A stretch of DNA of 64,000 nt from Medicago truncatula (taxonomy: Eukaryota; Streptophyta; Magnoliopsida; Fabales; Fabaceae). The stretch covers positions 12,110,501-12,174,500 of the forward strand of contig NC_053042.1 of assembly GCF_003473485.1 (NCBI RefSeq), read 5' to 3'. Below the pieces are notes generated by a model that saw nothing but the letters and a program-made list of their open reading frames with translations, was not told where the DNA came from and ran no database searches. Position 1 is the stretch's first letter; each line of letters begins with the position of its first letter. Shown piece by piece: positions 107-58,742 of the stretch. Both the position numbers and the translations under genes were made by a program.

Positions 107-150
107 TATAAATAATTACATTTTTTTTTACAAAATATAAATAATTACAT
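107..150 (-). repeat. Micro-insertion with 15-bp target-site duplication
   Basis: TATAAATAATTACAT occurs at 107-121 and again at 136-150, separated by 14 bases (122-135): eight T then ACAAAA. Read on the minus strand the insert is TTTTGT plus an A-tract, like the 3' tail of a non-LTR retroposon. The same 14 bases occur between a different duplication at 1309-1322. Confidence 0.6.
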
Positions 151-1296
151 AAAATTTAGTATTTTTCTATTATTTTAGGAAAAAATTATAAAGTGCATCA
201 TTCACCACTTTAAAATTAGACAGAATATCAATAAAGTCAATTATTTATTTATTCCCACATTATTTTCATCTAATATTTTATATGCATAAAATAAAGTATA
301 CTTTTGCAAACATACTAGCACAAAAATGGTTACCTTCTAATTATTTGTCTCCACAAATGAAATTTAACGGGTTAACATTCTCAATTCACAATTTTAGATA
401 GATACATATATTAACTATTTATTAAAGAAAACAAGGTACAAATCAAAATTCGAAAATACCTGTCAAAAATTGAGTATAAGTGGTTAATGAGTTTCACTAA
501 TTAAGAACGACAAATTATTCAAAAGAACCTAATTAAGTATGATTATCATTCTCAATTAAACAATTCTTTATGAGACTTTACTTACACCGATGGAACTCAG
601 AATTATCGAGACTCCTTTCATATAAACTAGGATTTACAAAAAAAATAAAAAAATATTCAAAGTACATTGTTAAATCTCACACGCTACCACATCATCGATC
701 TAATTCCACATTTTCTATTTCAATTTGAATCTGAATTTCAAAATTCAAAATTTCTTTACTCCACCGCTCTCTTTTCCTTATTTTTCTCACCACCATCCAC
801 AACAGAGCACCCCGATTTAAGTGCTTAAATGGGATCATTTTGTCCATATCACTCATTTTATAATAGTACTTACTAGGCACCAATTTTCTCCAACCTAGTA
901 CCACAAAAGAAATTACTAAATAAGTCCCACAAATAATTTATATCATTACATTTCAATATAAATTTATTTAATTCATTATGATTTATTAAATAGGGTCCAC
1001 AAAAGGTGAAGAGAGAGGGTGGTTCCATAGCCACCCTTCTCGACAGGCACACAAATATTATACTCCACAATAAGGATGCCTATTAAATATAGTGTTAAAT
1101 AGGTGAAACACCCACCATTGTGGATAACCTTATCTCATCCTTATTTTTCTCCGCTACTTTCTCTCTAATTTCATATTTTTTTTTTAGGGAATGCTTCAAT
1201 TTTGTTTACATTACTATAAAAACTATGGTACAATTTTTTTTGTTGTTGAAGCAATATGAGACAAATATTTGTAATAGATACATATACAAAAATAAG

Positions 1297-1334
1297 ACAT
1301 AAATATTATTTTTTTTACAAAAACATAAATGTTA
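1297..1334 (-). repeat. Micro-insertion with 12-bp target-site duplication
   Basis: ACATAAATATTA (1297-1308) and ACATAAATGTTA (1323-1334, one mismatch) flank the 14-base insert at 1309-1322. The insert is identical to the one at 122-135, but the flanks differ, so the two are independent insertions of the same tail. Confidence 0.55.
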
Positions 1335-1372
1335 ATTATTGATAAAAAAAAAATGAGACAAATGTTATCAGT

Positions 1373-1420
1373 AATACATATTAAGCACAATCCATTAAAA
1401 AAAATACATATTAAACACAA
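1373..1420 (+). repeat. Micro-insertion with 18-bp target-site duplication
   Basis: AATACATATTAAGCACAA (1373-1390) is repeated with one mismatch at 1403-1420. The 12-base insert between them is TCCATT followed by A6. Confidence 0.55.
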
Positions 1421-3008: not shown

Positions 3009-3045
3009 TTGTCATAAAAGAATTGTTTTGTTATTTTTTAAGTTT

Positions 3046-3459
3046 AAATGCATCTAAAGGTCCTTTAAGTTTTTCGTTTTTCCCAAAGTCGTCCTTTAAG
3101 TTTCAAAAGTCCCAAACAAGTTCTTTAAGTTTCAAAAGTCCCAAACAAGTCCTTTTAGTTTTTGAATCGTTTCAAATTTCAAACAAGTCCTTTTAGAGGA
3201 TGATGGTGATGATTTAGATGATAGCAACAAAGAGCATTATCCACCATTTGTCATGCCTAAAAAGATGACTAATTTTAAGTGGGTGTTAGGAGCCAGATTT
3301 GGTACCAAAGATGAGTTCAAGGAAGCAATTACCAACTATGTTATCTACAATAGGACTTGTTTGAAACGATTCAAAAACTAAAAGGACTTGTTTGAGACTT
3401 TTGAAACTTAAAGACGACTTTGGAAAAAATGAAAAACTTAAAGACCTTTAGATGCATTT
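3046..3459. mobile_element. Terminal-inverted-repeat element carrying a MuDR transposase scrap
   Basis: The ends are inverted: AAATGCATCTAAAGG on the left and CCTTTAGATGCATTT on the right, with further inverted AAGTCC/GGACTT motifs inside. Between them 3196-3360 reads open on the plus strand and includes DDGDDLDDSNKEHYPPF and FGTKDEFKEAI, which resembles the N-terminal part of plant MuDR-type transposases. Only about 55 codons remain, so it is not functional. It could be a deleted Mutator-like element or a small element that captured a transposase piece. Confidence 0.6.
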
Positions 3460-4690
3460 GACGTTCTTTTAACTTCTCATTCTTCTTACTTTCTTACTCG
3501 TGTGTGCTGAACAACGATCGCTAATGGCTTGATCCCTGATTTCAAACCTATTTTTTTGTTATCATCTTTTTTTTTTCTTCTTCTTCCATCCACCGGTGTA
3601 TGTAATCAAACGAATTCAAAACATGTTAAAGGAACCAAAATCTTCCATCAAAGAATTCAACAAGTTTCTTCACCCTCTTGTCTGAAGGAGAACATGTTCG
3701 TTGCCTCTGCTTTGTATTGTCTATCATTTATGATTGATATTGTATCTGTTAGGACGTTATTCTTGAGGGTTTTACTATTCATAGTAATTGCTTAATGAGC
3801 ACGTTTAAGAGAGGAAGTCAAAACTAAGAGGAAGCTAAAATTATGTATTTGCTTTGATGACTCATAAAGAGATTAAAGGAATGGATTGTTAGTGTATATA
3901 ATTAAAACCGGTCAAAATAGGGTTAGAATTTGTTAATTTCTGTAAATTCAATTTAATATAATAATGCACAACATCAGTGATCCTTATATAAATTATTCCA
4001 TGATTATTTAAGTGATTGTAGTTGCATAACAATTTAATTATACTTTTACTCAATTTATTTTGAACCATTGCAATTTTGGTCCCTCTGATGATTTTTAGTA
4101 ATTTTAATCTCTCAATTACTTTTCAATTGTTAAAAATTATGAATAGAAAAGTAAATATCCAAATTAATTTATAATATCTTAACAATGTCTGACCCAAAAC
4201 ATACTATGTTGCCAAATTAATTCCTCTAATTTGTTTTTGCTCAGAATCATGAAAAAGGGCCAAATTGGTCTCTCCTTAATGTTTACTAATGAATCTTATT
4301 TTGTTTGAAAAAGGGACAACAAAATTAATCTGATGTGAGTTGATTGTTTGATTCTTTGTGTCAAATAATGTTACCAATTTGTTTGATGTTTGCTTTATCG
4401 TGGGTCCTATTTGTTAAATACTGGTTTTTATCAAATAAACAACAAACAAAGACAAGCATTAAACATATATCAAATAGGACCACTTTACAAGTATATGAGA
4501 GAATATTCAAGAGCACTCAAATGAGGTGTTTGGTGCGGCTTCTAGTGTTGATTTAGGTGTTTTCTTTTCTTTTATATATGGTTGGACGTGGGTGTTGTTC
4601 CAGCCAACTATTGTATATGATATTTATGAGCTAAATCCATTGTTAGGGTGAGCATTAATAATCATATAAAAGTTTATTGAGTTTGGGCTT
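3460..4690. other. Intergenic, no gene recognised
   Basis: An open frame at about 3529-3795 begins without an ATG and encodes a hydrophobic start followed by unrelated sequence; I see no family match. The rest is AT-rich without repeats that I can define. Confidence 0.5.
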
Positions 4691-4691
4691 T

Positions 4692-9463: not shown

Positions 9464-9544
9464 GATCCACTTACTAATAATAGTAACTTGGGAAAAAAGA
9501 TAAGAACAAAATAATTTAATGCTCTTATTCTTTCCTATAAATAC
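9464..9544 (+). promoter_or_regulatory. GRP-2 promoter block with TATA box
   Basis: GATCCACTTACTAATAATAG begins at 9464, AAAGAT is at 9496-9501, CTCTT at 9522-9526 and CTATAAATAC at 9535-9544, 85 bp before the ATG. AAAGAT and CTCTT are the two classical nodulin consensus motifs. The whole block is colinear with those of the other GRP genes. Confidence 0.65.
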
Positions 9545-9628
9545 CCAACATTGAGCAACTTCATTTTCATCCATCATATACTTATATCGATACACATAAT
9601 TAAGTTTCAAAGTGAGTACTTCTTGAAA

Positions 9629-9996
9629 ATGAATTCCAAGGCGTTACTTTTTCTAGCCATGTTGTTGGCTTCCATCCTTCTCATTTGTGCAGAGTCTGCA
9701 CCCAAAGACTTGGACAACAAAGATGGTAATACTAATTTTTTACATTTAGTATAATTTCCCACCATTATTATATGTTTAGCATAATTTTACTAAGATTTTT
9801 TCAAGAAAAAAATAAACTTAGTAAAATAATATACTAAGTTTAAAAAATAAAGTATTTATTATTTGTACGTTATATGAAAATAAGATAGCTTCACTGCTAG
9901 AAAAAGTTAAACAACCATAGGAATTTAGAGATAGAAAAATTGAAAATCCATCTCTAATTAGTTAACTATTAGAGTGGAATAATTTAGTGGTAAATT

Positions 9997-10029
<33 letters not shown>

Positions 10030-10363
10030 CTAATTTTGGATGCCATTCAAGTTTTTATAGTAGTGCAATCGAGATGTTATAAATTTGACTACAATTTAAT
10101 TATATTTTTATTTATGGTTTGTAGAAAAAATAGACACAAATGGATATTATGGAGGTGGGGGTTATGGTGGTAGGGGTGGTTATGGTGGTTGGCGCGGTGG
10201 TTATGGTGGTAGGGGTGGATATGGTGGATGGCGTGGTGGTTATGGTGGTGGACGTGGTGGTGGTGGTTGGCGTGGGGGATATGGTGGTGGCCGCGGCGGT
10301 TGGGGTGGTGGTTGGCCTGCCGAAAACCATGATGCTTATACTGATGCTGAACCTCAGAACTAA
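9629..10363 (+). CDS. Nodule-type glycine-rich secreted protein (GRP-2)
   Basis: Exons 9629-9725 and 10125-10363, with a GT-AG phase 1 intron; product 111 aa. Exon 1 encodes a signal peptide (MNSKALLFLAMLLASILLIC) and the linker ESAPKDLDNKD. Exon 2 begins EKIDTNGYYGG and consists mainly of GGYGGWRGG/GGRGGYGG repeats rich in Gly, Tyr, Trp and Arg. It closes with WPAENHDAYTDAEPQN. There are no cysteines in the mature part. The protein is presumably exported, possibly to the symbiosome or cell wall; the family is nodule-specific in Medicago, but its molecular role is unsettled. The start is fixed by the signal peptide and by identity with GRP-3. The intron carries a CACTA-type MITE and a ~28-base T-run. 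AATAAA signals at 10403-10412 lie in a conserved 3' UTR motif (AATAAATAAAACTTCATG). Confidence 0.9.
9892..10065. mobile_element. CACTA-type MITE in the GRP-2 intron
   Basis: CACTGCTAGAAAAAG at the left and TTTTTATAGTAGTG at the right form CACTA-like termini. The interior has ATTTAGAGATAGAAAAA, also found in the GRP-3 intron element (24330-24454). A run of about 28 T at roughly 10000-10027 lies inside it. Confidence 0.6.
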
Positions 10364-10729
10364 GCAAGAACTTGAGCTAGAGTCGGTTCATAGTACTACT
10401 ACAATAAATAAAACTTCATGTGTGAAGTGTACTTATGTAGAAAAAGGAAACATATACAATAAAAGTTAGAATCCTATGATCTAGTGTACCTGTTAAATGA
10501 ATAATACACTTAATTAACCTTACATACATAATCTTTCTATTTCTTTCTTTTACAAGTCTTTGCATTCGGATTTGGATAACCCTAGCTACACGACAACACA
10601 CGGTGTAGCAACTACAAGATCGTTATATCAAAATTTTCATTTATTTCTTTGATTCAACGACATGTAATTATTACACCGTGTATACAACGTTGTACGGTGA
10701 TTGAATCATCTTATGTTCTCTCATTAACT

Positions 10730-10772
10730 AGTTTCAGTTAATTTTGCTAAAAAAAAAAAAGTTTCAGTTAAT
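10730..10772 (+). repeat. Micro-insertion with 13-bp target-site duplication
   Basis: AGTTTCAGTTAAT at 10730-10742 and 10760-10772 flank 17 bases: TTTGCT followed by A11. It looks like a retroposon 3' stub. Confidence 0.65.
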
Positions 10773-12683: not shown

Positions 12684-13057
12684 TACTCCCTTTGCCGTAT
12701 ATTAAGTGTTCTATTTTAACATTTGACAAAAGTGTAAAAATCAAAGAGAGATAATGATGTTTTACTAAATTACCCTAATCAAGTATTTTTGTATTCATTT
12801 TTTTATCGTAATTGATAAGTGAATAATATTGACATAGAAATTGGGTAAAAAAAAATATTGACATAGAGATAAACTTGCATTTATTAGAGGTTACAATTAA
12901 AAAAAAGTGTAAATAACATTGTATTTAAAATGGAAAGCGTTAATTTGTACCCAATTTTTTTTTCAAAGGGTTAATTATTCTGATACAAAATTATACAAAT
13001 GAGTCACTTTTATTTAGAGGTACAAATGGGTCACTTATTATTGAAATGGAGGCAGTA
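12684..13057. mobile_element. Stowaway-like MITE
   Basis: Begins TACTCCCTTTGCCGTATATT and ends TTGAAATGGAGGCAGTA, with TA at both outer ends. A 5' part of the same element is at 18641-18845 in the paralogous block, where the right half is lost. Inside, a micro-insertion with its own duplication lies at 12825-12867. Confidence 0.65.
12825..12867 (+). repeat. Micro-insertion with 14-bp target-site duplication (empty site at 18.79 kb)
   Basis: AATATTGACATAGA at 12825-12838 and 12854-12867 flank AATTGGGT plus A7. The paralogous block at about 18792-18806 reads through as AATTTTGACATATAAG without the insert, which shows that the insertion is real. Confidence 0.75.
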
Positions 13058-19440: not shown

Positions 19441-19524
19441 AAAAAAATTAGAGTAGCTTTAACATTTAAGAAATTGAAATAAGAACAATTTGATAAACCA
19501 CAAAGTTCATTACACTAGAATATA

Positions 19525-22918: not shown

Positions 22919-22963
22919 ATCTAAAATAATAGCTTTTTTTTGACAAAATCTAAAATAATAGCT
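22919..22963 (-). repeat. Micro-insertion with 16-bp target-site duplication
   Basis: ATCTAAAATAATAGCT at 22919-22934 and 22948-22963 flank 13 bases: T7 then GACAAA. On the minus strand this is TTTGTC plus A7. Confidence 0.7.
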
Positions 22964-23171: not shown

Positions 23172-23220
23172 AATTATAATTAAGTTTCCTTCAAAAAAAA
23201 TAAATTATAATTAAGTTTCC
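23172..23220 (+). repeat. Micro-insertion with 18-bp target-site duplication
   Basis: AATTATAATTAAGTTTCC at 23172-23189 and 23203-23220 flank TTC plus A8 and TA (13 bases). Confidence 0.7.
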
Positions 23221-25620: not shown

Positions 25621-27730
25621 GATAACAATGCAATCAAGCATGTATCATTAGGTATGTATCAAAGTTATACCATATCAGAGGCTCGCTACAACTTACTTAA
25701 CAACAAGTATTATCAACAGGAAAATGATCTAGAGACACCTCTCTAACACATTGAGCGAAAAAGAATTAAAATGAGTGATGTGATAATATGATAGAAATAG
25801 AGAAAAAAAAATGAAGTGTTTGATGAGTTTTGAGAACTTTGGGATGTACAAATATAAGAGTTAGTCCCTAAAAGAAATATATAAGAGCTCATTATCAAAA
25901 TCTTATCGATCATATATAATTTATGGAAAGAGAGGATGAGAGAGAGAGAGGGACCTAGAGAGAGAAAGTGAGGTTGGGAAAGGCGTTTCAAAGGACAATC
26001 ATGAGAGTGGAGGTCCGGTGCCGGAGAAGCGACGGGAGCACTTCCGCGACCACTCAACCACGTCGTTCTTCTTTACTAACCTGCCGGAGGGGTTCAAAGT
26101 CTCAGTTCTTTGGACAAATTTTCTCAAGTTTGGTAATGTTGGGGAGGTGTATGTTCCATTGAAGACTGACCGCAGGGGACATAGGTTTGGGTTCGTCAAG
26201 TACCGGGACATGGTGGATGTGGAGGCGCTCGAGTCTCGTTTGGGGGAGATCTGGATGGATGATTCGAAGCTGCAGGTCAACAGGGCCAAGTTTGGGAGAG
26301 AGGTGAAGCGTCCAACTTCTATTTCGGTGAGGAAGGACGCAGTTGGAGGTAGAGGTTTGGAGGTTTTCAAGGACAGATCCTTCAAACAGGTGCTGCTAAA
26401 TCGTCAGAAGGATGTTGTTGGTCCGGCGGTCTTGCGAAGGTTGGTGGCGCTGCCTTCAGAAGACAGATTGAGGGAGTTAGAATCCTGCTTTGTTGCTGAG
26501 TTGTCTTTTCTTAGAGAGCCCAAACAGGTTCAACACAGTTTGGTGCTGGGAGGGTTGAACAAGATAGGTGTGATTCCTATGGGAGCAAATATGGTTCTTT
26601 TGAAAGCTGAAGATCCACACTTGATTGAGGAAGCAGAAGGTAGGAGTGATCCTTGGTGGAGAGGTTTGTTCAAATCAGTCAAACGTTGGGCTCCAAACTT
26701 GGTGTCTAAACAGAGGTTGATTTGGATAAGATGTTTTGGATTGCCTTTGCATGTTTGGGATGAGAAGACCTTTAAGAAGATGGGAGCTCTCTTTGGAGAG
26801 TTTGTTGATTTTGATGAGGAAACCATAGGCTTAAACAGAGTTGATATGGGAAGGATTTATGTGCTTTCTTCATCAATGGCCTTCGTAAATGAAAAGCTTA
26901 GGGTGGAGGTAATGGGGGTGGTTTTTGATGTATGGGTCGTGGAAGAGGTGGTGCCGGTGGCGGTTGGAAGGAGGGCGTTGGATTCCGATTGGCAGGAGGT
27001 CTCTGATGCGTCATCTCATGGCGGTGGGGATGGTGGCGTGTTGCCTGAGCTCTTGGAAGGGGGTAGTGAGGTCAGCCCTAGGGAACTAGCTTCCGTACGT
27101 GTTTTGCAGCTGCATGGGTCAAAGTCAAATTGTCACTTTTCTCTTCAGAGGAGACATTTGGAGTGTTCAGAGGAGCTTCCGTCTGTGGGCCAACCTTTAG
27201 GTGCTTCTTTGGTGAATATTTGTTGTAAGGATCCAACCTTGGTAGGACACCTGGAAAGTGAAGTACTACCCTGTGAGGAGCAAGTTCTGTATGCTGAAAA
27301 GGAGCTGTCAACATCTCCTAATCCTCCTCCTTCTTGCGATGGAATTGTGGGGCCACAGGAGGTAAGGTGCCTGGATGGGAGTGCAGAAGAGGTTTTGGCG
27401 CGTGGGATTGAAATGGGAGTGGAGTTAGGAGCTGATGTGGAGCTGGAATATTCTGATAGGAATATTAACAATACTGGGCCTATTTTTTCTCATGGGCTTT
27501 CGGTGGATATTTGTGGTCTGGAGGCAGATTCTATTTTTGCTAAGGGTGGAGTTAATAACAGGGAGGTGGGAAGAGTTAATAGTCATGTCCGTTTTCGATC
27601 CGAGGATTCAGACCTTTCGGAATTTAGTGATTCAGTAGGTGATTTTAGGGAGGAGCATGAAAGGAAGGTTTTGCACAAAGCAAAGTGGAGACTTAAGAAG
27701 AAAACTGGAGGTGGTAAATCTATTCCGCCG

Positions 27731-29111
27731 GGCACTGATGAAGGTTTTTCACCTCTCATAAAACTATTTACACGTAAGTATAATAGGATCGTGTCCACAG
27801 GGAGTTGCGTATTTCATAAACATTTTCACAATATTTGTCACGTTAAGTGTTTGGGTATAAATTGTTTGTTTGTGTAAAACTATTTTCCTAATAGACATAA
27901 AAGTAAAACGAGAAGAGATAGGGCTATTCCGCTTGCGGTCAGAGACATCAACCAAGCGTAACAGCTGCAATCTCTCGATCGATTAACGGATTCTAGCTTT
28001 TTAAACTATATTATCACAATCACTCGACAATATCATTCGTGTCCAAATGATATCGTTATTTCTAAGGGATCGTTTAAACATCGATTTCCCAAACATTTAA
28101 ACGATCACAAAGTCGTTTGGGTAGTTTAATCGACGATTTCCCAACCAATTAAATTACCCAAAAGCATTAAGTTCTAGATTAAAAGTGATTATCAAATATT
28201 AACATCCATGTCTAGAGTGATAACTTAAGATAGATTGTTATTCTATTTCTAGATTCAAAAGTATGTGTCAATATTATTTTGAATCTCAATAAAACAATAA
28301 AAGCAAGAATAACAACAATATTGAATAAATAAGCTAGAACCATATATTAAAAGATCAAAAGATTACATAATAGCTTGTTTGAATACCTCAAAACTACAAG
28401 AGTAGATGTAGCTACATATGTCTATGATAGCTTTGCAAAGGATGAAGAAATGGTGAAGATTCCATGACAAGATCCATGATGTCTCAACAAATCTTGGCTT
28501 GAATCTACACCTAACTACCTTGCTTTGTGTTTCTCTCTCTAGAAAAGCCCTAGTCTCTCTCTAAAACCAGAAAAATATGAATAAAAATGTAATAGCATTC
28601 TTGGAAAGAGAAGAGATAACTATTTATATGGGCTGACTGCGTGCCAGTTCGCTTAAGCGAACATCCAGGAAATCTCCAGTTGACCATTGAGGTGCTGCCA
28701 CGTGGTCCCTATCTTCTGAAGTTGGATGAACTTCGCTTAAGCGAAGCACAAGCGAACATGTGAGCGAACTTTCCTGGAGCTCACTGGAACTTTGTCGCTT
28801 AAGCGAACTGACCTTTCTTCATGAGCGAACTGGAAGCGTGCTTGTAAGCGAACATAATGGTTGCTCTCTGTAATTAGTTCGCTTAATTGAACAGGAGTTC
28901 GCTTAAGCGAACGGACCTTGGTTCAGGAGCTTCCTTCTTTTGGTCCTTGCTTGTCATTTCCTGCATAAATTGGGTAGAATCAGGCATGTAAAGCATAAAT
29001 GGTAAAATTGCACTCAAATGGTAGCTTTTCCTTAGATAACTTGCAAAACAAATCACTAATTTGCCTAAGTTAACACATGAAATATGTTACTTTTGAGCAC
29101 TTATCAGGCAC
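27731..29111. mobile_element. Solo LTR nested in LINE ORF1
   Basis: GGCAC at 27731-27735 and 29107-29111 is a 5-bp target-site duplication. The LTR (27736-29106, 1371 bp) begins TGATGAAGG and ends CACTTATCA, i.e. TG...CA with inverted TGAT/ATCA ends. It has no coding sequence. It contains a cluster of TTCGCTTAAGCGAA palindromes (28647-28912) and ATCGTGTCCACAGGGAGTTG near the left end. Solo LTRs form by recombination between the two LTRs of one element. Confidence 0.9.
28647..28912. repeat. Cluster of GTTCGCTTAAGCGAAC palindromes
   Basis: Perfect or near-perfect copies at 28647-28662, 28732-28745, 28795-28806, 28877-28892 (variant AATT core) and 28897-28912, with further AGCGAAC half-sites between them. 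All are within the solo LTR. Confidence 0.9.
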
Positions 29112-29534
29112 TGAGAATTTTGCTCTTAAAGAGGACCTGTTGCGTTGTAATAAAGGCAAAGGAAAGAAAAATTCCAAGACTAGTTTGTGTTCTTCTAATG
29201 GAGAAGCAGAAGCGGCTGGTAGTGGGAAGAGGGTCGGGTGGAAGGACGAAGGCGGCCTAGACCATAGGGGTAGAGTGAATGGTTGGGTGGATTCCTCATC
29301 TTCGGGGCTTAGATTCATACTTGATGAGGAAGGTATCCATAAGCCGGAATCACCGTTGCTGAAGGTAGGAGGGGATCCTTTGAAGAAGATGGAAGCATCA
29401 TCTCTGTATGGTATTCAAAATGAGCTAGGTGTATCGTTTACAACCCCAATAGGTGCTAATAAGAGTAGGTTGGAGAAGATGGAAGAGTTAGATGTGGAGA
29501 AGAAGGCTTTACGGGAGAGTAAATTGGTTAATCA

Positions 29535-30725
29535 ATGATCATCACAACCTTTAATATTAGAGGTTTGGGGGGTGCTTCAAAGAGGAACAAAATTAGAGAA
29601 TTAATGCGAAACAATAAGGTGGAATTTTTGGCTATTCAAGAAACGAAAATGGAGGAGGTTACGGATAATTTTTGTCACAAGTTATGGGGAGGGGTGGATT
29701 GTGATTGGGCTTTTCTCCCTTCCGAAGGTAACAATGGAGGTATTCTCTCTATTTGGAGTAACTCTAACAATACTACTAATTCTATTTTTGTTGGAGAGGG
29801 TTATGTGGGGGTGTGTTTGGATTGGGGAGTTTTGAAGCATAAATGCTATATCGTCAATGTCTATTCTAAGTGCGATTTACCGGCTAAGAAGAGATTGTGG
29901 GATAGGCTTGTTGAGTTGAAATCGACGTTGGGTGAGGGAGCTTGGTGCATTCTTGGAGATTTTAATACGGTGGGTAGTTGCGATGAACGTCGAGGGGTGA
30001 ATGAAGAGATTTCGTCTAGTCATCGGGAGGAGATCTTCCTTTACAATAATTTTGTGCGGAATATTGATTTGGATGACTTGAATGTGTTGGGAAGACGATT
30101 TACGTGGTACCATCCCAATGGAAGGGCAATGAGTCGCATTGATAGAGTTCTTATTTCCGAAGAATGGGGGCAATTGTGGGGGGACTCATCCCTTTGGGTG
30201 CTCCCTAGAGATGTTTCCGATCATTGTCCGTTAATTTTAAAAGAAGCCGGTTGGGATTGGGGGCCGACGCCATTCCGTTTTAATAACTATTGGTTGGAAA
30301 ATCGTGACTTTAAGCGGGTGGTGGAGGATGCTTGTAGAGGGGTTCATAGAGAAGGATGGATGAGTTTTGTCTTAAAAGAAAAACTTAAAGCTTTGAAATT
30401 GATCATTAAGGAGTGGCATCTTGGTGTTTATGGGGATTTGGAGGCTAGGGTGAGTAAGGCGGTGGAGGATATCCTTGTTTTGGATGTAAGGGGGGAGGAA
30501 GGATGGTTGAGTGAGGAAGAGGTGGATATGCGTAAAACTTTGTTTCGGGAATTATGGAGGCTCTTAAAAGCAAAAGACTCTAATATGGCCCAAAGAGCGC
30601 GAAATAAATGGCTTAAGGAAGGGGATACCAAATCCAAGTACTTCCATAAGTGTGTTAAGTCTAGGAGTGGTAGGAATTCCATCAAGGCTTTAAGGGTGGG
30701 GGAGGATTGGGTGAAATCTCCTTGA
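29535..30725 (+). pseudogene. LINE ORF2, 5' part: AP-type endonuclease
   Basis: 396 codons from ATG at 29535, overlapping the end of ORF1 by 4 bases. The endonuclease/exonuclease/phosphatase fold is recognisable: TTFNIRGLGG at the N-terminus, AIQETKM (catalytic Glu), ILGDFNTV, SRIDRVLIS and SDHCPLIL (terminal Asp-His). All the usual catalytic motifs are present. The linker toward the reverse transcriptase (WLKEGDTKSKYFHK) follows. The frame stops at 30723-30725 because of an internal deletion that joins it out of frame with the polymerase part. Confidence 0.85.
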
Positions 30726-32794
30726 ATCAATCGGCGTTTCTTAAGGGGAGGAATTTGGTGGATGGGGTGGTGGTTATTAATGAAATTGTGGATTACGCTA
30801 AGAAATTTAAAAAGGAGTGCTTGATACTTAAGGTTGATTTTGAAAAGGCTTACGACTCCGTGGATTGGGGGTTTTTGGTGTATATGATGAGGAGAGTGGG
30901 TTTGTGTAAAAAATGGATAGCTTGGATAAAGGCGTGTGTGTGTGGAGGGAGTATGTCGATTCTTGTTAACGGGAGCCCAACAGAAGAAATTAATATTCAT
31001 AGAGGCCTTAAGCAAGGAGATCCTTTAGCTCCATTCCTCTTTCTTTTGGTGGCGGAAGGTTTTAGCGGTTTAATGAGGAATGCTATCTGCGGTAATTTTT
31101 TTCAAGGTTTCAAGATGAAGGAAGATGGGAAGGAGTACTCTCATCTCCAATATGCCGATGATACGATTTGTATGGGGAAGGCAACCGTGGAGAATCTTTG
31201 GACTCTAAAGGCTATGCTACGTGGTTTCGAATTGGTTTCGGGCTTGAAGGTGAACTACCACAAAAGTTGCTTGTTGGGTATTAATGTGAATCCGGATTTT
31301 ATGGAGATGGCATGTAACTTCTTGAATTGTAGTCAAGGGAATTTCCCGTTCCGGTATTTGGGGTTGCCGGTTGGAGCTAATCCGGGTAGAGTTTCGACGT
31401 GGGATCCCCTCTTAGAGCACTTAACTAGGAGGTTGAATTCTTGGGGAAATAAGTATATAAGTCTTGGTGGGACAATAGTTCTCCTTAATTCGATCTTGAA
31501 TGCGATTCTGATTTTTCATCTTTCCTTTTTTAAAATGCCGGTTAAAGTGCGGAAGAAGATTGTGAGAATACAAAGGGAGTTCCTTTGGGGAGGGGAGGAA
31601 GGTGGTAGGAAAATTAATTGGGTAAAATGGAGTTTGGTGTGCCAACCTAAAGAGTATGGGGGCCTTGGTGTGAAGGATGTGTGGTGGATGAACTTGTGTT
31701 TGTTAGTCAAATGGAGGTGGAGGGTGTTGAATGGCGAGAATGCTCTTTGGAAGGAAGTGCTTGTGGAGAGGTATGGTACGAATGTACGTGCTAAGTTGGA
31801 AAGTGGGGTGGAGGTATGTCCACATAGTGCTTCTAAGTGGTGGAAGGATTTAGTTAATATGGATAAGAGGGGGGAGGAACGGTGGTTTAATGAGGAGTTG
31901 GTTAGGCGAGTGGGGGATGGTACGAGGACAAGTTTTTGGAGGGAGGGGTGGAGAGGGGGGATATTGTTTATGGCCAAATACAATAGACTTTTTTCTATTT
32001 CTAATCAACAAGATGCTTCGGTTAGAGATATGTGGGGGGATCTTGGTGTTGAGGGGAGTTGGAGATTTAGTTGGAGGCGTCGCTTGTTTGTGTGGGAAGA
32101 AGCTCTTCTTGCTAATTTGGAGGCCGATTTGGAAGGATTCACGTTGACCAATTTTGATGACAAATGGGTTTGGAATTTGGGAGACACGAAGGTTTACTCG
32201 GTTAAATCCTTGTATGATAAGTTGGAGAATGAAGGGAGGGTGGAGGAAACTCTCTCGGAGGCCGACAAGTTGGTGTTTGGTAACATTTGGAAGGCCGGTG
32301 TCCCGTCCAAGGTAACCGCTTTTTTTTGGAAGGCTCTCTTAGATCGAATTCCTTCTAGATTGAATTTGGAGATTCGACATTGTTTGCCACCGGATTCTGG
32401 TATAAATTGTGTTTGGTGTGAGGTAGGGGTTGATTCAACCTCTCATATTTTCCTTCATTGTGACTTGGCAAGGAATATTTGGTTAAAGCTAATGGAGTGG
32501 CTAGATTTTAGCTTTGTAATGCCTCCAAACTTGTTTATCCATTGGGAGTGTTGGAGTGGTGGAACTTCGAATAAGAAAATTCGAAAGGGCTTGAGAATGA
32601 TATGGCATGCGGCTATTTGGGTGTTGTGGAAAGCGCGTAACAATTGTATTTTTAACAACGAAGTCACTAGGTGGGTTGAGGTAGTGGACGAGATCAAGGT
32701 TTTGTCTTGGAGATGGTTGTTGGGTCGCTTTCAAGTTCCGGCGTGTCAGCTTTACGAGTGGGAATGGAACCCTCGTGATTGTCTTATGCGCTGA
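30710..32794 (+). pseudogene. LINE ORF2, 3' part: reverse transcriptase and zf-RVT
   Basis: Open from the deletion junction to the stop at 32792-32794, with no ATG of its own. It begins at SLNQSAFLKGR, inside the reverse transcriptase domain. It continues with LKVDFEKAYDSVDW, GLKQGDPLAPFLFLL and the catalytic QYADDTI (about residue 148 of this part). The thumb follows (FRYLGLPVG), then FLWGGEEGGRKINWVKW, and a C-terminal zf-RVT domain (IWKAGVPSKVTAFFWKALL, CVWCEVGVDSTSHIFLHC). Compared with the family about 150 residues of the N-terminal polymerase region are missing at 30.71 kb. The remaining frame has no stop, so the deletion is probably recent. Confidence 0.85.
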
Positions 32795-33257
32795 CAGGCT
32801 GTTGTGTGTGGACAGCAGGTTTGCGCTGCTGGTTATGGAGGCTTGGTTTGAGTTTTGTGTTTTTCTGCACATGCTGGCTGCGACTCTACCTGCTGCGGGT
32901 GTGCTATGGTCTGTACAGCAACTTTGTTTTTGGGCAGTTGTGTTTCCCTTCGGAGCTTTGCGGGTTTGTGAGGGGTGCACTTTGGTTGGGGCAATAGGTG
33001 TTGGCTGCTAGGTGGCTGGTTTTGCTGGTATGGGTGCTGACGTGAGGGTATGCCTGTGGTATGCCATATGTATATGCCCACGTCATTATTCTTTGGTTAT
33101 CTTTTGTTTTAGGGTGGTTTTTAAGGGGTTTTTGTTCGAGCTGATGTTTGTGTGGCAACCGATTTCCCCTTGTTTGTTTTTTTTCCACCCAAGCTTATTA
33201 GTGCTTCTTGCACGGGCTTGTTGGTTAATAATATTTTGCCGATTCAAAAAAAAAATA
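32795..33257 (+). other. LINE 3' untranslated region and tail
   Basis: GT-rich, non-coding sequence (TTTGGGCAGTTGTGTTTCCC) typical of L1 3' regions, ending in GCCGATTC and an A-tract at 33246-33257. Confidence 0.8.
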
Positions 33258-35422: not shown

Positions 35423-35487
35423 ATAACTTTCAGTCACTTCATTTTCATCGATCAATATACAATAGTTTCAAAGTAAGTTATAAGAAA

Positions 35488-36358: not shown

Positions 36359-36423
36359 GTTATAATATTCATGCAAAATTCTTTCAAAAAAAAGAAGAAG
36401 AGGTTATAGTATTCATGCAAAAT
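36359..36423 (+). repeat. Micro-insertion with 21-bp target-site duplication
   Basis: A 21-bp word starting GTTATAATATTCATG at 36359-36379 recurs with one mismatch at 36403-36423. The 23-base insert is TCTTTC, A8, then GAAGAAGAG. Confidence 0.65.
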
Positions 36424-36455: not shown

Positions 36456-36497
36456 ATAATTGAATAAACATTTCCTCAAAAAATAATTGAATAAACA
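36456..36497 (+). repeat. Micro-insertion with 15-bp target-site duplication
   Basis: ATAATTGAATAAACA at 36456-36470 and 36483-36497 flank TTTCCTC plus A5 (12 bases). Confidence 0.7.
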
Positions 36498-42299: not shown

Positions 42300-42391
42300 T
42301 GAACAAATCCACTCGAGAATGATCCACTTAATGTCAACGAAGGAATTTAATGTTTTTTGTTCTATTTCTTTCTCATGTTGCCTATAAATAC
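42300..42391 (+). promoter_or_regulatory. GRP-5 promoter, distal part truncated
   Basis: CTATAAATAC at 42382-42391 and TTCTATTTCTTTCTCATG upstream match GRP-6. CACTCGAGAATGATC at 42311 is joined directly to CACTTAATGTCAACGAAGG. The TACTAATAATAGTAACT block and the AAAGATAAGAATGAA motif are therefore missing compared with GRP-3, GRP-4 and GRP-6. Confidence 0.6.
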
Positions 42392-42454
42392 ATAACTTTC
42401 AGACACTTCATTTTCATCGATCAATACAATAGTTTCACGATAAGCTATAACAAA

Positions 42455-43610
42455 ATGAATTCCAAAGGGTTACTTTTTCTTACTATGTTGCTGGCTTCCA
42501 TCCTTCTCATCTCTGCTGAGAAATCTGATAAAAAAGATGGTAATATTCTCGAGTTTTCCACGCCATTAATTATGATTATTATTACTTTTTTTCCGTAATA
42601 AATTATTTTTAATTAGTTGTACCACTTTTTCCTTGTGCTTAGGTGAACTATCCATTGTATTTTCCTTTTCAAATTTAAATACATTTTTTTCCATAAAAAA
42701 TAATTAGTTGGTCTACTTCCACTTGATGGTAGTTTTTTTTATTTGTATGACTACTCAATAGTTTAAGAATTTGATCAAATTTCAAAAGAATTTATTCATA
42801 TTACAATATAATTTTGGGGCGTTTAATATGAACATAGTTTAAAAGTGGGCTTCACTATTTTTATCAACTTTTAATAAAACTAGAATATTACGATCAAAAA
42901 AGAATATTACAAAGTTTAATCAAGCCTTTATACGGGTTAATTTACAAGTCTAGCCAAGACCTTACATAGGGTTAATTCCCTAAATTTAGAAATTGATCCG
43001 TCCTAGTTAGCTTAGCTCAGTTGGTAAGGGTAATATATAATATATGCAAGGTCCTGGATTCAAACCTCAGCCACAATAAAAAAAAAAGAAATTGATCCAT
43101 TATTTTAAGAATATTTTTACGTTTTATTATTAGCCATTGTGGGCTAGCTTGTTTTTTTAAGGGAATTTTATTATTAGCCATTACTTTAAAGTGTATTTAC
43201 TGTTATTTATGCTTCTTTTTTTTTGGTACAATTGTTATATACACTTTTAACTCAATGATATATAATTAATATAACATATTGACCTAATCGCATGTAAAGA
43301 TACATATTATTATGTATAATGTATTTATTTTTTTAATTTTTATTTTTTGGTTGTAGATAAAGCAAATGGGGTCGATGAAAGCAAATATGACTATGATGGA
43401 GGTTTGGGTTACGGTGGTCCATGGCGTGGAGGTTGGGGTTACGGTGATCCATGGCGTGGTGACTATGGTTGGGGAGGTCCATGGCGTGGCGGCTTTGGTG
43501 ATGGCTATGGTGGCTGGCGTGGCGGATTGGGTGGTGGTTATGGTGGCTGGCGTGGTGGTTGGCCTAAAGAACACAGCGATATTAATACTGATGCTGAACC
43601 TCATAACTAA
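42455..43610 (+). CDS. Nodule-type glycine-rich secreted protein (GRP-5)
   Basis: Exons 42455-42539 and 43357-43610, GT-AG phase 1 intron of 817 bp; product 112 aa. Exon 1 (MNSKGLLFLTMLLASILLIS, then AEKSDKKD) is identical to GRP-6. Exon 2 begins DKANGVDESKYDYDGG. It has GYGGPWRGG repeats, with acidic substitutions (YGDPWRGDYG), two YGGWRGG units, and ends PKEHSDINTDAEPHN. The intron is enlarged relative to GRP-6 by a SINE with a perfect 12-bp duplication and by two micro-insertions. The promoter has lost its distal conserved block, so expression may differ from its paralogues. The frame is intact. Polyadenylation motif AATAAATAAAACTTCATG follows about 50 bp after the stop. Confidence 0.9.
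42882..42910 (+). repeat. Micro-insertion in GRP-5 intron, 10-bp duplication (empty site in GRP-6)
   Basis: AGAATATTAC at 42882-42891 and 42901-42910 flank GATC plus A5 (9 bases). The GRP-6 intron has a single AGAATATTAC at 48751-48760 with no insert. Confidence 0.75.
42988..43098 (+). mobile_element. Short tRNA-like SINE in the GRP-5 intron
   Basis: AGAAATTGATCC at 42988-42999 and 43087-43098 is a perfect 12-bp target-site duplication. The 87-bp insert has TAGCTTAGCTCAGTTGGTAAG (box A), GGTCCTGGATTCAAACCTC (box B) and a terminal A-tract. It has little beyond a tRNA-like body and a tail. It is absent from the GRP-6 intron. Confidence 0.85.
43201..43244 (-). repeat. Micro-insertion in GRP-5 intron, ~12-bp duplication (empty site in GRP-6)
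   Basis: TGTTATTTATGC (43201-43212) and TGTTATATACAC (43233-43244) flank TTC, T8, GGTACAAT. GRP-6 has one uninterrupted TGTTATTTACAC at 48972-48983. Confidence 0.6.
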
Positions 43611-43717
43611 GCAAGAAATTCAGCTAAGAGTGGTCTCTTGTTGTACTATGCATCACAATAAATAAAACTTCATGTTAAATGAAGTTAGAAATGTAATAAA
43701 ACGGTTGATCTTGTGTA

Positions 43718-48254: not shown

Positions 48255-48402
48255 TCCACTTACTAATAATAGTCACTCGAGAATGATCACTATACGGTCA
48301 AACAAAGAAGAAAAATAAGAATGAAATTATTATATAACTTTATGTCAACGAAGGAATTTAATGTTTTTTGTTCTATTTCTTTCTCATGTTACCTATAAAT
48401 AC
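48255..48402 (+). promoter_or_regulatory. GRP-6 promoter block with TATA box
   Basis: TCCACTTACTAATAATAGTC begins near 48256, followed by CTCGAGAATGATC. AAAAATAAGAATGAA is at about 48311 (the AAAGAT core is mutated to AAAAAT). CTATAAATAC is at 48393-48402, 64 bp before the ATG. Confidence 0.65.
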
Positions 48403-48465
48403 ATAACTTTCAGACACTTCATTTTCATCGATCAATACAATAGTTTCACAATAAGCTATAAGAAA

Positions 48466-49326
48466 ATGAATTCCAAAGGGTTACTTTTTCTTACTATGTT
48501 GCTGGCTTCCATCCTTCTCATCTCTGCTGAGAAATCTGATAAAAAAGATGGTAATATTTTCGAGTTTTAATTAGTTGTGCCACTTTTTCCTTGTGCTTAG
48601 GTGAATTATCCATTTTATTTTCCTTTTCAAATTTAAATATATATTTTCCATTAAAAAAATTAGCTGTTCTGCATGATGGTAGTTCTTTTTTATTGTATGA
48701 ACATGGTTTAAAAAGTGGGTTCAATATTTTTATTAACTTTTAATAAAACTAGAATATTACCAGGTTTAGTCAAGGTTACCATTGCCCTTGGGGCATTGGA
48801 TAAAGTACTAAAATAAGTAATTTTGTATTGAAAAATGGTGTAATTATTGCTAAGAAAAAAGTAAAAATTTGTATTTCCAAGACAAAGTTTCTATTAATGG
48901 AATCCTTAACGATTGCTCTTAGGGCACTAATTAGCAAGACCCTTGTTTTTTTTAAGGGGAAGTGTATTTATTGTTATTTACACTTTTTAAATCAATGATA
49001 TATTGACCTAGTCACGATATGAAGATATATATTTTGTATAATGTATTTATTTATTTCTTTATTTTTGGATAATTTATTTATCTATTGCAGATAAAGCAAA
49101 TGGGGTAGATGAAAGCAAATATGGCTATGGAGGTTGGGGTTACGGTGGTCCTTGGCGTGGCGGCTATGGTTGGGGTTACGGCGGTCCATGGCGTGGCGGC
49201 TATGGATGGGGAGGTCCATGGCGTGGCGGATGGGGAGGTGGTTATGGTGGCTGGCGTGGAGGCTGGGGTGGTGGTTGGCCTAAAGAACACAGTGATGCCA
49301 ATACTGATGTTGAACCTCATAACTAA
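48466..49326 (+). CDS. Nodule-type glycine-rich secreted protein (GRP-6)
   Basis: Exons 48466-48550 and 49091-49326, GT-AG phase 1 intron; product 106 aa. Exon 1 equals that of GRP-5 (MNSKGLLFLTMLLASILLIS, then AEKSDKKD). Exon 2 begins DKANGVDESKYGYGGWGYGG. It has three GPWRGGYGWG-type repeats and WGGGYGGWRGGWGGGW, and ends PKEHSDANTDVEPHN. It is closest to GRP-5, which lies about 6 kb upstream in the same orientation inside a segmental duplication. The intron contains copy 3 of the GGGCACTGGTTAA MITE. The AATAAATAAAACTTCATG motif is conserved in the 3' UTR. The product is predicted to be secreted; nodule specificity is family knowledge, not shown by this sequence. Confidence 0.9.
48774..48952. 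mobile_element. MITE with GGGCACTGGTTAA ends (copy 3 of 3), GRP-6 intron
   Basis: The left part is TTACCATTGCCCTTGGGGCA and the right part GATTGCTCTTAGGGCACTAA followed by CAAGACCCTT. It is absent from the GRP-5 intron at the equivalent place, so it arrived after the GRP-5/GRP-6 duplication or was lost in GRP-5. Confidence 0.55.
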
Positions 49327-49479
49327 GCAAGAAATTTAGCTAGAGTGGGCTCTTGTTATACTATGTATCACAATAAATAAAACTTCATGTGAAGTGTTGT
49401 AGTTACAAATATAATAAAACGGCTAATCTTGTGTTGTATTGTACTTGTTCAGAAATAATATACACGAGTTTAGACATAT

Positions 49480-55056: not shown

Positions 55057-55848
55057 ATGATCTCCTTCTCTATTTAACACTCTTTTGAGTTTTTACTTTG
55101 CTCCTTTTTATAGGACTCAATTCATATTTTAAAGTGCATTAATTTTTTCTTTACCAATATATACTCTTATTTATGCTACATATTTTTCTACAATATGTTA
55201 TAAATAATATATGATCACGTTAAACTAATTCTCTCTTCTAACAGGTAAAATTGTAAAACAATAACAATTGCAAATAAAATTAATACAACACCCAACTTTC
55301 TTAATTATCGTGCTTTTCTAAAAATTGTCATATATTTAGAGACGGATGTATAGTACTCTCTTTGTTTTTCCCAATCCAACATTCACACTCAACACTATTG
55401 AACTTAATGTATGGATATAAATAGTGAATAACTCGGATATCAATAAAACCATCACAAATTTTAAAAAATCAAACTACAAATTATTTTCATGGACTAGATT
55501 TTAAATTAATAATTAAATAAATCAAGTGAAATAAAATTTATTTTATAGAACTACTAAGTATAAAACAATACAAATCAAAATTCTGCGGTACACTTTTTCA
55601 ATAAAGCAGCACATATCTGTGTTTTATCGTACATGAAATCACCCATAACAAACACAACTTCTCACCATGTGAATGAGACCATGGAGTCCAAATTTTATTG
55701 TATTCCACTTTGAATTATATGTCTTATATGTGAAAATGGCAATTGGTTATTTTGACTTAATTTGTACAATTTTGAAATGCACTTTGAAGTTAAAATTTGA
55801 AATGTAACTAAGATACAATGTTTACTATATACTTCGTTTTCCTTGTAA

Positions 55849-57317
55849 CTAAGATTGAGAAATAGCTTGCTTCAAATATTTGAAAGCTTGCTGATGATTT
55901 AAGAAACCCATAAACCAAAATTCAAAATCATCCACCGTAACAATTTCAATGTACTTTTGGGTAGACTTCTTCACATGTTCCCTTTGATTAATAACCCTTA
56001 TCTTCCCAAGTGGAATAATGACCTACAAGGATAGATAATTTATAGTTTTTATGAGATTCAAAATATATTAAATAAAATATTCGATATCTGCATGGATGAA
56101 CAGTGAGTTTGGGGAAATCACGATTTACTCAAACTCATTGTCGATCCAAACATGGACTTAAAGGTTTTTTTTCTCAAACTAAACTCATTGTCGATCCAAA
56201 CATGGACTTAAAAGGTTTTTTTTTTTTTGTGCAAATCATTATGTGTATTACCTTGTAATATGTTCTAATAAAGTGACCTTTTGGAGAAGAGATTTTAATT
56301 GATCTCTCACTACAAAAGGCAATTTTATTAGTTGATATGAAGAGTAGGCCTGCTAGAGGACCAGATGTTGTTGATAGATAACATTGAGATGCTTTTAGTA
56401 GCCTCTCTCCATCTTTTACACTAAATAGTTGCATGAACACCTTTTCCACTCCTCCAACTTGAAGAATTCTAGCTCCTAAGCTCAGCTTTCCTTTCACTGT
56501 ATCGGTTATGTTTGGCCCAAGTTTCACTGCATTTTAAAAAAAGTTACATTATAAGTGAGGTCTTGAATCAAGATCCTTTGAATTGTATCGCATGGGCAAT
56601 GTTTCGAGTTTAAGCCCTCTTGATGAAAATAAGTGTGAAAGAGGAGAGACCCCATTTTTAATGGTTAGCTAAATTCCGTAATATCGGTGGATCCATCTCA
56701 CCAATAATACGGGTAAAAAAAAAAAAATTACAACTTTATTGAACATTATATACTAAGGACTATTGTTGAGAAATATTAATATACAAATTCTAAAATTTAG
56801 TAAATCAGTTAGACATGTGCAAACTAATTATATTAGTATATGGTTTCAATGAGTATATGTATATACCATGTTCTTTGAGTCCAGTTGCAAAATTGTCAGC
56901 TTTTCTCCCAAGATTGTTCATCCTAGTGAGAACTGAATTTGCTCTGCCTGAAATGAAAAAATTGTTAGAAGAATTGGTTTGTGTAAAATATGAACTCTGA
57001 TTTATTCAATGAGGGAATTTCCCTACATGTATTTTGTCAATACAACAATAACAACATTGTTAATACAACAATTAACATTTAAGATGAACGAATCAAATAA
57101 AAAATTTCTTTATATTTCTTGGTAAACACTTGAGCAATGAAGATTAAATTTTAAATAAATTAAAAGTTGCCTTACTTTGATTTGAATTTGTGCTGGACTT
57201 ATTGTAGTGGTTGGACTTGGAAGAATTTATCAAGTATTTGTTTGATGAATTATCACCCAAGTATGCTGCTGAGTTGAATGGAAATCCAACTAATAGCTCT
57301 TGAAGAAAATAAGCCAT
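55849..57317 (-). CDS. GEM-like protein with GRAM domain
   Basis: Four exons on the minus strand: 57317-57176, 56947-56867, 56526-56252 and 56022-55849 (stop TAG at 55851-55849); 223 aa, a usual length for short GEM-like/ABA-responsive proteins. All introns are GT-AG with consistent phases. The N-terminus is MAYFLQELLVGFPFNSAAYL, followed by a Ser/Asn-rich linker. NSVLTRMNNLGRKADNFATG and HVKLGPNITDTVKGKLSLGA precede the GRAM domain (about residues 95-170: GGVEKVFMQLFSVKDGERLL, then GLLFISTNKIAFCSERSIKI). The C-terminus is IPLGKIRVINQREHVKKSTQ, KYIEIVTVDDFEFWFMGFLN, then YLKQAISQS. GRAM domains bind phosphoinositides at membranes; relatives respond to abscisic acid or modulate epidermal patterning (family knowledge). 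No break is visible, so it is probably functional. It lies head to tail with the B3 gene, about 890 bp upstream of its start. Confidence 0.85.
56131..56220. repeat. Tandem duplication in intron 3 of the GEM-like gene
   Basis: AACTCATTGTCGATCCAAAC followed by ATGGACTTAAAGG and a T-run occurs twice, about 47 bp apart. Confidence 0.85.
56548..56725 (+). mobile_element. SINE in intron 2 of the GEM-like gene
   Basis: GAGGTCTTGAATCAAGATCC, a GTTTCGAGTTTAAGCCC box B, CATCTCACCAATAATACGGG and a terminal A13 tract indicate a tRNA-derived SINE in plus orientation, antisense to the gene. A target-site duplication is only weakly visible (AAAGTTACA / AAAATTACA). Confidence 0.65.
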
Positions 57318-57390
57318 CCTCTATCAAATAATTTTCTTCTCAATCTTGATTTATTTGCTTAGCTTGATGAAACTTCATGATTTTAAGGGT

Positions 57391-57401
57391 GTCTATATAG
57401 C
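57391..57401 (-). promoter_or_regulatory. Possible TATA box of the GEM-like gene
   Basis: GCTATATAGAC on the minus strand about 75 bp before the ATG at 57317. Confidence 0.35.
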
Positions 57402-58742
57402 AATGAAATTTAACATATATTGACTCTTTTTGGAGGACTGATTTGTATGTCATCAATCATGAGGAATAAAGGTAGGTGGTTGGAGATAGCTTGTTTGGTA
57501 GTTTTCATTAAAAAAAGCAAATGTTTTGTAAAGGTGTTCATCATAATTAATAAAATGCTTCAAAATAATCATAATTAATGAAAAAAATGTGGAGCATCAA
57601 TGAAAGTTAGATATCATAATTATTATTAATAATAAAAAATGAAAAGAAAATCTTTTTGAGAGTACCATATTCTCTAGAAAGATGTTGTAGAAGAACAAAA
57701 TATTTTGGTTAGTTATGAATGAATGTGTATCATTGAGCTTTATGAGTTGGCAAAATTAGCTTTTGATGCCAGACTAACTTTTCTTGAAATAAATAAATTA
57801 GTCTGGAAAAAAATATGCAAACCACTTATTTTTATGGAAAAAAATACAAAGATTTCAAAAGAACATACTAGAAAGAACCTAGAGTTGTAAGGTATGTGTG
57901 GATTTATGGTCTAGTTGAATTTGTCTACTAAACCTGGAGTTTTCAAGTATGAAATTAAAAGTAATAAATCTCAAAGGAAACCTTTTAATCTTCCTTCGTT
58001 AAAACCTTTCACTAAGTAATGTATGCACTTTTTTTTTGAAGCAAAGTAATGTATGCACTTAAAGACAAATGTGTGTGCGGTGGAAATATAGCATGAATTA
58101 TTTTGATTTATTATTGTATTTCAATTTTTTTCTTGATTTTGATGATAGAAGTGTGGTTCAACATATAGTTACATATGAATAGTATTTTACTATTTTTATT
58201 ATAATTTAATTTTTTTTCTTGTTTTTACAACAACAGTAATAATTCACTAGAAGAAATAAGTTTTTTGATAATTTATATTAACGTTCTCGTACCTTTGTTT
58301 TTTAAAATTTACCGTATTTTGCATCCATGTCTTGATTATTTGGACCTATGCATCCATGTCTTGTTAATACCCGTCCTTCTAGTTTTTGAGCCTTGTTTAG
58401 CTTATGCTGCTTTTTTTATACAACGAGAGTGAAAGGAATCTCCTGAGCAATATTCATCCATGCATGTCTCTTCAGCATTAGATATTTAGATATCAATCGA
58501 CACCTCCTTTATCGTACCTCCCCATAATTTCTTGAGGATTTCCACGTTCTTTTCAACATGTCTTATTCTTGACCTATACATTTTGCCTAGTCAAATGGTC
58601 TAACCGAGTTTCAAGCACCACCTCAACTTCATTATGGATATTTTGCACATTTTTCTGAGCATCGTCCTTAAAATGTCTCCAGACTCCTTAGCACTTGAAG
58701 TGATATCATGTTGAACATTTTCCACTTCATGCTTATTATTAT
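57402..58742. other. Intergenic, no gene recognised
   Basis: AT-rich; contains one micro-insertion (58014-58060) and an isolated CACTAGAAGAAAT motif at about 58244 identical to the CACTA terminus at 58743. No coding feature is supported. Confidence 0.5.
58014..58060 (-). repeat. Micro-insertion with 17-bp target-site duplication
   Basis: AAGTAATGTATGCACTT at 58014-58030 and 58044-58060 flank 13 bases: T7 then GAAGCA. On the minus strand this is TGCTTC plus A7. Confidence 0.75.

Follow-up and report, generated by a model that had tools for sequence, protein, structure and literature searches.

Short A-tailed insertions between target-site duplications in Medicago truncatula: probable products of aborted target-primed reverse transcription

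Insertions of 5'-truncated LINE-1, a long interspersed nuclear element (LINE), that arise by target-primed reverse transcription (TPRT) are marked by a target-site duplication (TSD), a 3' A-tail and an endonuclease site of the T|A type, according to the available parts of two reports (PMC4859970, PMC12633430). Here, we describe a class of minute insertions, called stubs below, found in a 64-kb window of AT-rich plant DNA (the whole stretch analysed, G000:C1:12110501-12174500, from the 429.9-Mb, 42-contig genome of Medicago truncatula) and elsewhere in the same genome. Judged against those parts of the reports, the stubs are like truncated LINE-1 in the size of their TSD, in their 3' A-tail and in their T|A-type site, but their body measures 5-10 nt, with hardly any intermediate lengths, and it does not match LINE 3' sequence. 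Their insertion by TPRT is well supported, and the class is widespread in the genome, not local to the window.

Several other described systems resemble the stubs in part. Processed pseudogenes and other mRNA retrocopies made by LINE machinery acting in trans have the same A-tail and TSD, and their mRNA-like poly(A) junction may be shared as well; however, such pseudogenes hold hundreds or thousands of nucleotides of RNA body and the stubs about 6. A TSD and an A-tail are also common to the tRNA-like short interspersed nuclear elements (SINEs), but these are about 86 nt long and have a tRNA-like body. In human disease, poly(A)-only insertions mediated by LINEs are known in which almost nothing besides the tail lies between the TSDs; in the stubs, by contrast, a short body is the rule, and bodies of 0-2 nt were unseen here. 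The patch-mediated duplications of break repair likewise consist of a short duplication around a few unrelated bases, but the stubs differ from them in their directional A-run, their T|AA start and a filler that is not copied from the flank. A literature search aimed at this stub class, with most subscription journals outside its reach, found no description of it.

The DNA examined amounts to 264 kb with a composition of about 67% A+T, and consists of the window and of 20 random 10-kb stretches (L024-L043) drawn from contigs C1-C7, contig C8 being unsampled. Both strands were catalogued, and the same sequence reversed without complementing served as the control. A strict set (n = 26) was defined by a score of at least 10, a tail of at least 7 and a body of 3-12 nt; the 12-nt ceiling is a rule of this set, and the evidence for a length peak was taken from catalogues free of any upper body limit. 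Left out of the strict set were a hairpin-repeat family (5 short-insert rows, at about 3.0-3.5 kb of the window and in L038) and one case, L028:1182, that is common to a repeat copy. Two doubtful cases were retained: L028:7170, with its 27-bp duplication, and L029:2210, which has the body TAG and a SINE-like insertion inside its downstream duplication copy. A region at 3040-3460 of the window, built of short repeated GTCCTTTAAGTTT / AAACTTAAAGGAC units that occur in either orientation and have relatives at L038:2278-2560, is mistaken for stubs by the scans.

The excess of such structures over chance is readily apparent in the window, where, once masked arrays are set aside, there are 37 exact direct repeats of at least 10 bp with a spacer of 5-30; the Markov means are 2.6-3.0 (orders 1, 3 and 5; 60 sets each). 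Twelve of these repeats have an A-run on the side expected of TPRT (Markov mean 0.13-0.25), 6 have it on the opposite side and 19 are without one. With one mismatch allowed, the random sample yielded 62 cases; the A-run was on the expected side in 23, on the opposite side in 3 and absent in 36. The corresponding figures for the window were 13, 4 and 14, and Markov sequence of orders 3 and 5 combined, amounting to 10 sets of 200 kb, gave a single expected-side case. Over the 264 kb, inserts of 3-25 nt numbered 40 in the real sequence and 10 in the reversed; the counts of that catalogue beyond 60 nt, in which rows recur, were disregarded. When a tail of at least 7 was demanded and the hairpin family was taken out of the real rows, the count became 24 against 3; the A-tail is strand-specific.

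The preliminary description of the window had held that these stubs are frequent, and this was borne out: the strict set amounts to 26 stubs in 264 kb, of which 7 lie in the window and 19 in the random sample, where they are present in 11 of the 20 stretches and likewise in excess. The comparison with shuffled sequence that it had proposed, made here on the 264 kb, gave the same answer, with 24 bodies of 5-10 nt in the strict set and 0 in each of 8 order-4 Markov sets; reversed sequence at equal score also had 0. On the assumption that the 264 kb are typical, the genome would contain about 42,000 copies (confidence interval 28,000-62,000), older stubs with worn duplications being uncounted, and extrapolation from the random sample alone gives 41,000 copies (25,000-64,000). 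In the DNA sampled the stubs outnumber the matches to LINE ORF2, homology to which was found at 5 places (coding parts only, copies without them being uncounted) as against 26 stubs. A further stub, L077:86-131 (body TTTTTTCAG, A7, TA, 14-bp TSD), was a chance find in a 181-base slice, and three more lie outside the random sample, at L006:790, L006:3045 and L015:2026.

When the A-run is taken as the 3' end, the layout of a stub is duplication, body, A-run, duplication, with typically about 6 nt and about 10 As between the two duplications; the tails are of 7-17 As. In 25 of the 26 members of the strict set the duplication measures 10-20 bp, and in one it is 27 bp (the scan itself demands at least 10). 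The first base of the duplication is A in 21 of 26 cases (p = 9e-7), the second is A in 19, and the base preceding it is T in 18, which corresponds to a T|AA nick. The unforced figures are those for positions +1 and +2 only, because A is ruled out at -1 wherever the insert itself has A as its final base. The opposite end of the duplication is not biased towards A in this way, its last base being A in 10 of 26.

The length of the body is narrowly confined. When the tail is at least 7, the bodies of the short inserts measure 5-10 nt in 22 of 24 cases (reversed 0) and 3 nt in the other two; among inserts of all lengths with such a tail, there are 0 bodies of 11-30 nt (reversed 4) and 2 of 31-60 nt (reversed 0), and the next group is SINE-sized. 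At score 10 the bodies fall into classes of 5-6 nt (13 cases), 7-8 nt (10) and 9-10 nt (2), with 0 in the control and L028:1182 included; beyond these come 0 of 11-20 nt (control 2), 2 of 21-30 nt (control 4) and 2 of 31-60 nt (control 0). Lowering the score to 9 lets a single body of 9-10 nt into the reversed control. When artificial insertions were implanted in the sequence, their bodies ranging from 3 to 300 nt, recovery was 57-60 of 60 at every length; hence the gap in body length is not a detection effect. Bodies of 0-2 nt numbered 0 in real and 2 in reversed sequence, the implant recovery having covered 3-300 nt only. Over 27 stubs (L028:1182 included), the total insert is 16.6 nt with a standard deviation of 3.1, and body and tail length have a weak anticorrelation that is not significant (rho -0.34, p 0.08).

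All twelve of the duplication-flanked A-tailed inserts that the preliminary description reported in the window are present where it had placed them. An objective scan (score of at least 10, and an A-run of at least 5 ending no more than 3 nt from the 3' duplication) recovered 9 of them, failing at the sites that begin at 1297, 36359 and 43201, and the strict set takes in 7. In 8 of the twelve (107, 10730, 12825, 22919, 23172, 36456, 42882 and 58014) the duplication is exact over its full length of 10-18 bp. The stub at 107..150, on the minus strand, has an exact 15-bp TSD (107-121 and 136-150) around an insert at 122-135 that reads TTTTGT and an A-run on that strand, and it has empty paralogs. 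A probable stub of the same strand at 1297..1334 (TSD 1297-1308 and 1323-1334, 12 bp with one mismatch) falls under the scan threshold; its insert, 1309-1322, was said to be identical to 122-135, and the sequence printout agrees. Close by, on the plus strand, the stub at 1373..1420 has an 18-bp TSD with one mismatch and 12 exact bases (1373-1390 and 1403-1420) and the insert TCCATT plus A-run (1391-1402); it belongs to both the scan and the strict set.

Both catalogues also include the plus-strand stubs at 10730..10772 (TSD 10730-10742 and 10760-10772; insert 10743-10759, TTTGCT + A11) and 23172..23220 (TSD 23172-23189 and 23203-23220; insert 23190-23202, TTC + A8 + TA), and on the minus strand those at 22919..22963 (TSD 22919-22934 and 22948-22963; insert 22935-22947, TTTGTC + A-run) and 58014..58060 (TSD 58014-58030 and 58044-58060; insert 58031-58043, TGCTTC + A-run). 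The plus-strand stub at 12825..12867 (TSD 12825-12838 and 12854-12867; insert 12839-12853, AATTGGGT + A-run) is in the strict set and has an empty paralog. At 36359..36423, also on the plus strand, there is a probable stub with an impure tail, whose 21-bp TSD (36359-36379 and 36403-36423) has one mismatch and 14 exact bases and whose insert (36380-36402) is TCTTTC + A8 + GAAGAAGAG; the scan missed it because its A-run does not adjoin the TSD. Two other plus-strand sites, the stub at 36456..36497 (TSD 36456-36470 and 36483-36497; insert 36471-36482, TTTCCTC + A-run), which the scan recovered, and the short stub at 42882..42910 (TSD 42882-42891 and 42901-42910; insert 42892-42900, GATC + A-run), which has an empty gene copy at 48751, are outside the strict set because their A-run is 6. 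Finally, the minus-strand insertion at 43201..43244 has a short and imperfect TSD of just 9 bp with one mismatch (43201-43209 and 43233-43241) around an insert at 43210-43232 that reads ATTGTACC + A9 + GAAGCA on its strand; it too has an empty gene copy.

Part of this series lies among a tandem gene family with glycine-rich-looking repeats, so named by reading, at 9530-10379, 24020-24776, 35361-36175, 42330-43704 and 48341-49419. Two of the stubs and a SINE stand between the parts common to the tandem gene copies at 42.4-43.7 kb, and the sites at 36359 and 36456 are downstream of another copy.

Counterparts in the pre-insertion, or empty, state were found among paralogous sequences for 4 of the 12 window sites. 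At 107 the insert and one duplication are missing in all 7 of the repeat copies fetched, the site having 40 genome matches besides itself. The paralog of 12825, near 18794, is without the insert and one duplication and otherwise differs by 3 bases, and the duplicated gene copy has neither the insertion of 42882 (near 48751) nor that of 43201 (near 48960). As for the remaining sites, the flanks of 1297 and 1373 are single-copy DNA, the in-window paralogs of 36359 and 36456 are too diverged for comparison, and no usable paralog was found for 22919, for 23172 or, in the DNA examined, for 10730. A copy in L077 reaches the left part of 22919 and, by eye, stops short of running through the site. There was also no usable paralog for 58014, where the genome matches begin downstream of the stub, in a repeat family at about 58079-58318. 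When gaps of insertion type between paralogs were surveyed automatically in the DNA examined, 11 events were returned, one of them a stub; the filters of this survey missed 12825, 42882 and 43201, and it was not used.

If the stubs were the last remains of LINEs, their bodies should end as LINEs do, and the preliminary description had itself named the lack of such a match as a refutation. A genome search with the 3' end of the LINE in the window gave 104 first-look candidates, of which 40 were scored; the 38 LINE 3' ends of this genome that were compared belong mostly to one subfamily, 19 of them having come through one search. (Two slices without an A-run, L080 and L088, gave no end; in L085, which has two A-runs, the second was taken; L056 and L057 were counted via L078 and L079.) The match failed for the LINEs: TTC precedes the tail in 28 of 38 LINE ends against 3 of 26 stubs (p = 8e-7), and in 8 of 13 of a more diverse LINE set (p = 0.002). 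Three short tRNA-like SINEs have CCAC or CAAT before the tail, and SINEs are less well excluded as a source because few of their ends were compared. A tRNA CCA origin of the bodies that end in ACC (4 of 26, p = 0.01) was considered and set aside, the bodies being by eye unlike an acceptor stem.

The bodies are almost all distinct from one another, yet they share a composition. A pyrimidine precedes the tail in 24 of the 26 stubs, and positions -2 to -6 of the body are A-poor (0.15 vs 0.36, p = 4e-7) and T-rich (0.48 vs 0.35, p = 0.004). In the available part of one study, the poly(A) sites of M. truncatula are YA dinucleotides within a very U-rich region (PMC4117952), and in Table 2 of another, the portion of that report drawn on here, UA makes up 60% of them, CA 22% and GA 11% (PMC3832601). 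The resemblance of the stub bodies to plant poly(A) sites is suggestive, and not proof, because the stubs carry more C.

The TPRT origin of the stubs and their derivation by truncation of LINEs or SINEs are separable, and it is the former that is supported and the latter that is not. TPRT rests on the direction of the A-run, the T|AA start, the empty sites and the excess in random stretches. LINE endonucleases cut T|A-type sites such as T|AA, according to the available parts of the reports already cited (PMC4859970, PMC12633430), and the LINE in the window represents the likely kind of machinery behind the stubs. We consider it probable that the stubs are products of aborted TPRT by LINE machinery on the tails of polyadenylated RNAs, stopping about 6 nt past the tail. 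The insertion itself, its direction, its target and its length are established; which RNA was copied and why copying stopped are inferences. A LINE-encoded endonuclease would nick T|AA, and the T-rich end thus freed would prime on a poly(A) tail; the enzyme would then copy the final As of that tail, continue for 5-10 nt into the RNA body and halt, after which cutting of the second strand and filling of the gap would produce the duplication. Less certainly, the templates would for the most part be polyadenylated RNAs other than those of LINEs, such as mRNA 3' ends, and the stop would reflect a discrete block, for example the failed engagement of a non-cognate template, rather than random truncation.

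A number of observations weigh against this interpretation. Before the tail rule is applied, short inserts also occur in the reversed control (10 vs 40), and there are two real cases with bodies of 31-60 nt. C precedes the tail in 13 of 26 stubs, above the mRNA expectation (CA 22%), and bodies of about 6 nt (5-10 nt) are too short to map to a source RNA. The LINE ends come mostly from one subfamily, near relatives of which are among the 13 ends classed as diverse; a LINE or SINE family missing from the sample could have the ends seen in the stubs, and 4 of 26 stubs do end in ACC, like one longer SINE-like repeat at L028. The link of the stubs to LINE machinery is drawn from the LINE in the window, and abortion through a cognate check is speculation.

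Against aborted TPRT on foreign RNAs must be set, above all, the near-total 5' truncation during TPRT that the preliminary description proposed, that is, ordinary LINE or SINE insertions shortened down to their last nucleotides and tail. The TPRT half of that proposal has stood, given the A-run direction, the T|AA start and the empty sites; its LINE/SINE tails have not, since there is no continuum of lengths and the ends differ. Truncation would account for the hallmarks of TPRT, the tails of stubs and LINEs are similar (7-17 As in the stubs), and a few bodies, such as TTTGCT and TGCTTC, resemble LINE-type ends. Nonetheless, simple truncation of LINEs is disfavoured because random truncation predicts a continuum and the bodies peak at 5-10 nt (22 of 24, none at 11-30 nt, detection being flat); the different 3' ends and the scarcity of LINE ORF2 homology relative to the stubs speak in the same sense, and we judge this explanation unlikely. 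Somewhat less likely still is TPRT on an RNA already degraded to a remnant protected by the reverse transcriptase, a few nucleotides of body with the proximal tail, in which synthesis simply ran off the end. The narrow body length, the uniform total insert and the weak anticorrelation of body and tail would suit such a remnant, but that anticorrelation is not significant, and the sequence cannot tell a remnant from an abortion.

Explanations that dispense with reverse transcription fare worse. Double-strand-break repair in which the broken ends undergo patch-mediated duplication and filler DNA is added is known from plants, where Vaughn and Bennetzen reportedly described such duplications in 2014 (cited in PMC6097286), and the direct repeats without an A-run, common in the random sample (36 of 62), may be of this class. 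The A-tailed class, however, is strand-directional (24 vs 3 reversed) and its duplications start at T|AA. Its bodies, moreover, are not enriched in the flanks within 100 bp (5-mers 10 of 22, with 8.1 expected; 6-mers 4 of 19, with 3.1 expected), figures near expectation on which locally templated filler was rejected; break repair is thus a very improbable source of the stubs. Chance or slippage, which the AT-richness of the sequence might favour, was rejected on the Markov controls, with 0 cases in the 8 order-4 sets, and on the existence of empty paralogous sites, and has a negligible probability.

If aborted TPRT on foreign RNAs is the correct reading, it invites a more tentative extension, on balance doubtful, in which the stubs would be the fossils of a LINE template check: the enzyme would start on any poly(A) tail but release a foreign RNA about 6 nt past it, and cis-preference would be set at early elongation. 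Should this be so, rejected starts would be the commonest outcome of endonuclease nicking, with tens of thousands of insertions of 25-40 bp, and if most LINE-type nicks yield stubs of a narrow size, the chief product of retrotransposition escapes repeat annotation. Plant pangenomes would then contain a class of 25-40 bp indels of known cause and polarity, and the stop could be used to learn how the enzyme distinguishes its own RNA from foreign ones. As markers, the stubs each have a clear ancestral state, and the length peak can be examined in any good assembly by a short script.

The LINE of the window occupies 25930..33255 of the plus strand (7.3 kb) and has Pfam matches to an APE-type endonuclease, a reverse transcriptase and zf-RVT; the endonuclease and reverse transcriptase pieces are in different frames (29532-30725 and 30674-32794). 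It ends 3' in GATTC + A10 and is flanked by a 16-bp TSD (25914-25929 and 33258-33273). The tRNA-like SINE at 42988-43098, classed by eye, is about 86-87 nt long, with a 12-bp TSD and an A10 tail, and has similar copies of 85-86 nt at L029:2107 and L042:8879; the duplicated gene copy shows no sign of it at about 48.8 kb, where the alignment is loose. At 58320-58363, on the edge of a repeat family, an exact 15-bp direct repeat surrounds 14 nt without an A-run, possibly a break-repair filler or the trace of an excision, and at 56131-56212 an exact 32-bp duplication, longer than a usual TSD, is split by GGTTTTTTTTCTCAAACT. Two arrays of one tandem repeat of about 204 bp lie some 5 kb apart, at 13419-14387 and 19511-20822, and an open frame on the minus strand at 60351-61844 has the gag, zinc-knuckle and aspartic protease domains of a Ty3-type long terminal repeat retrotransposon.

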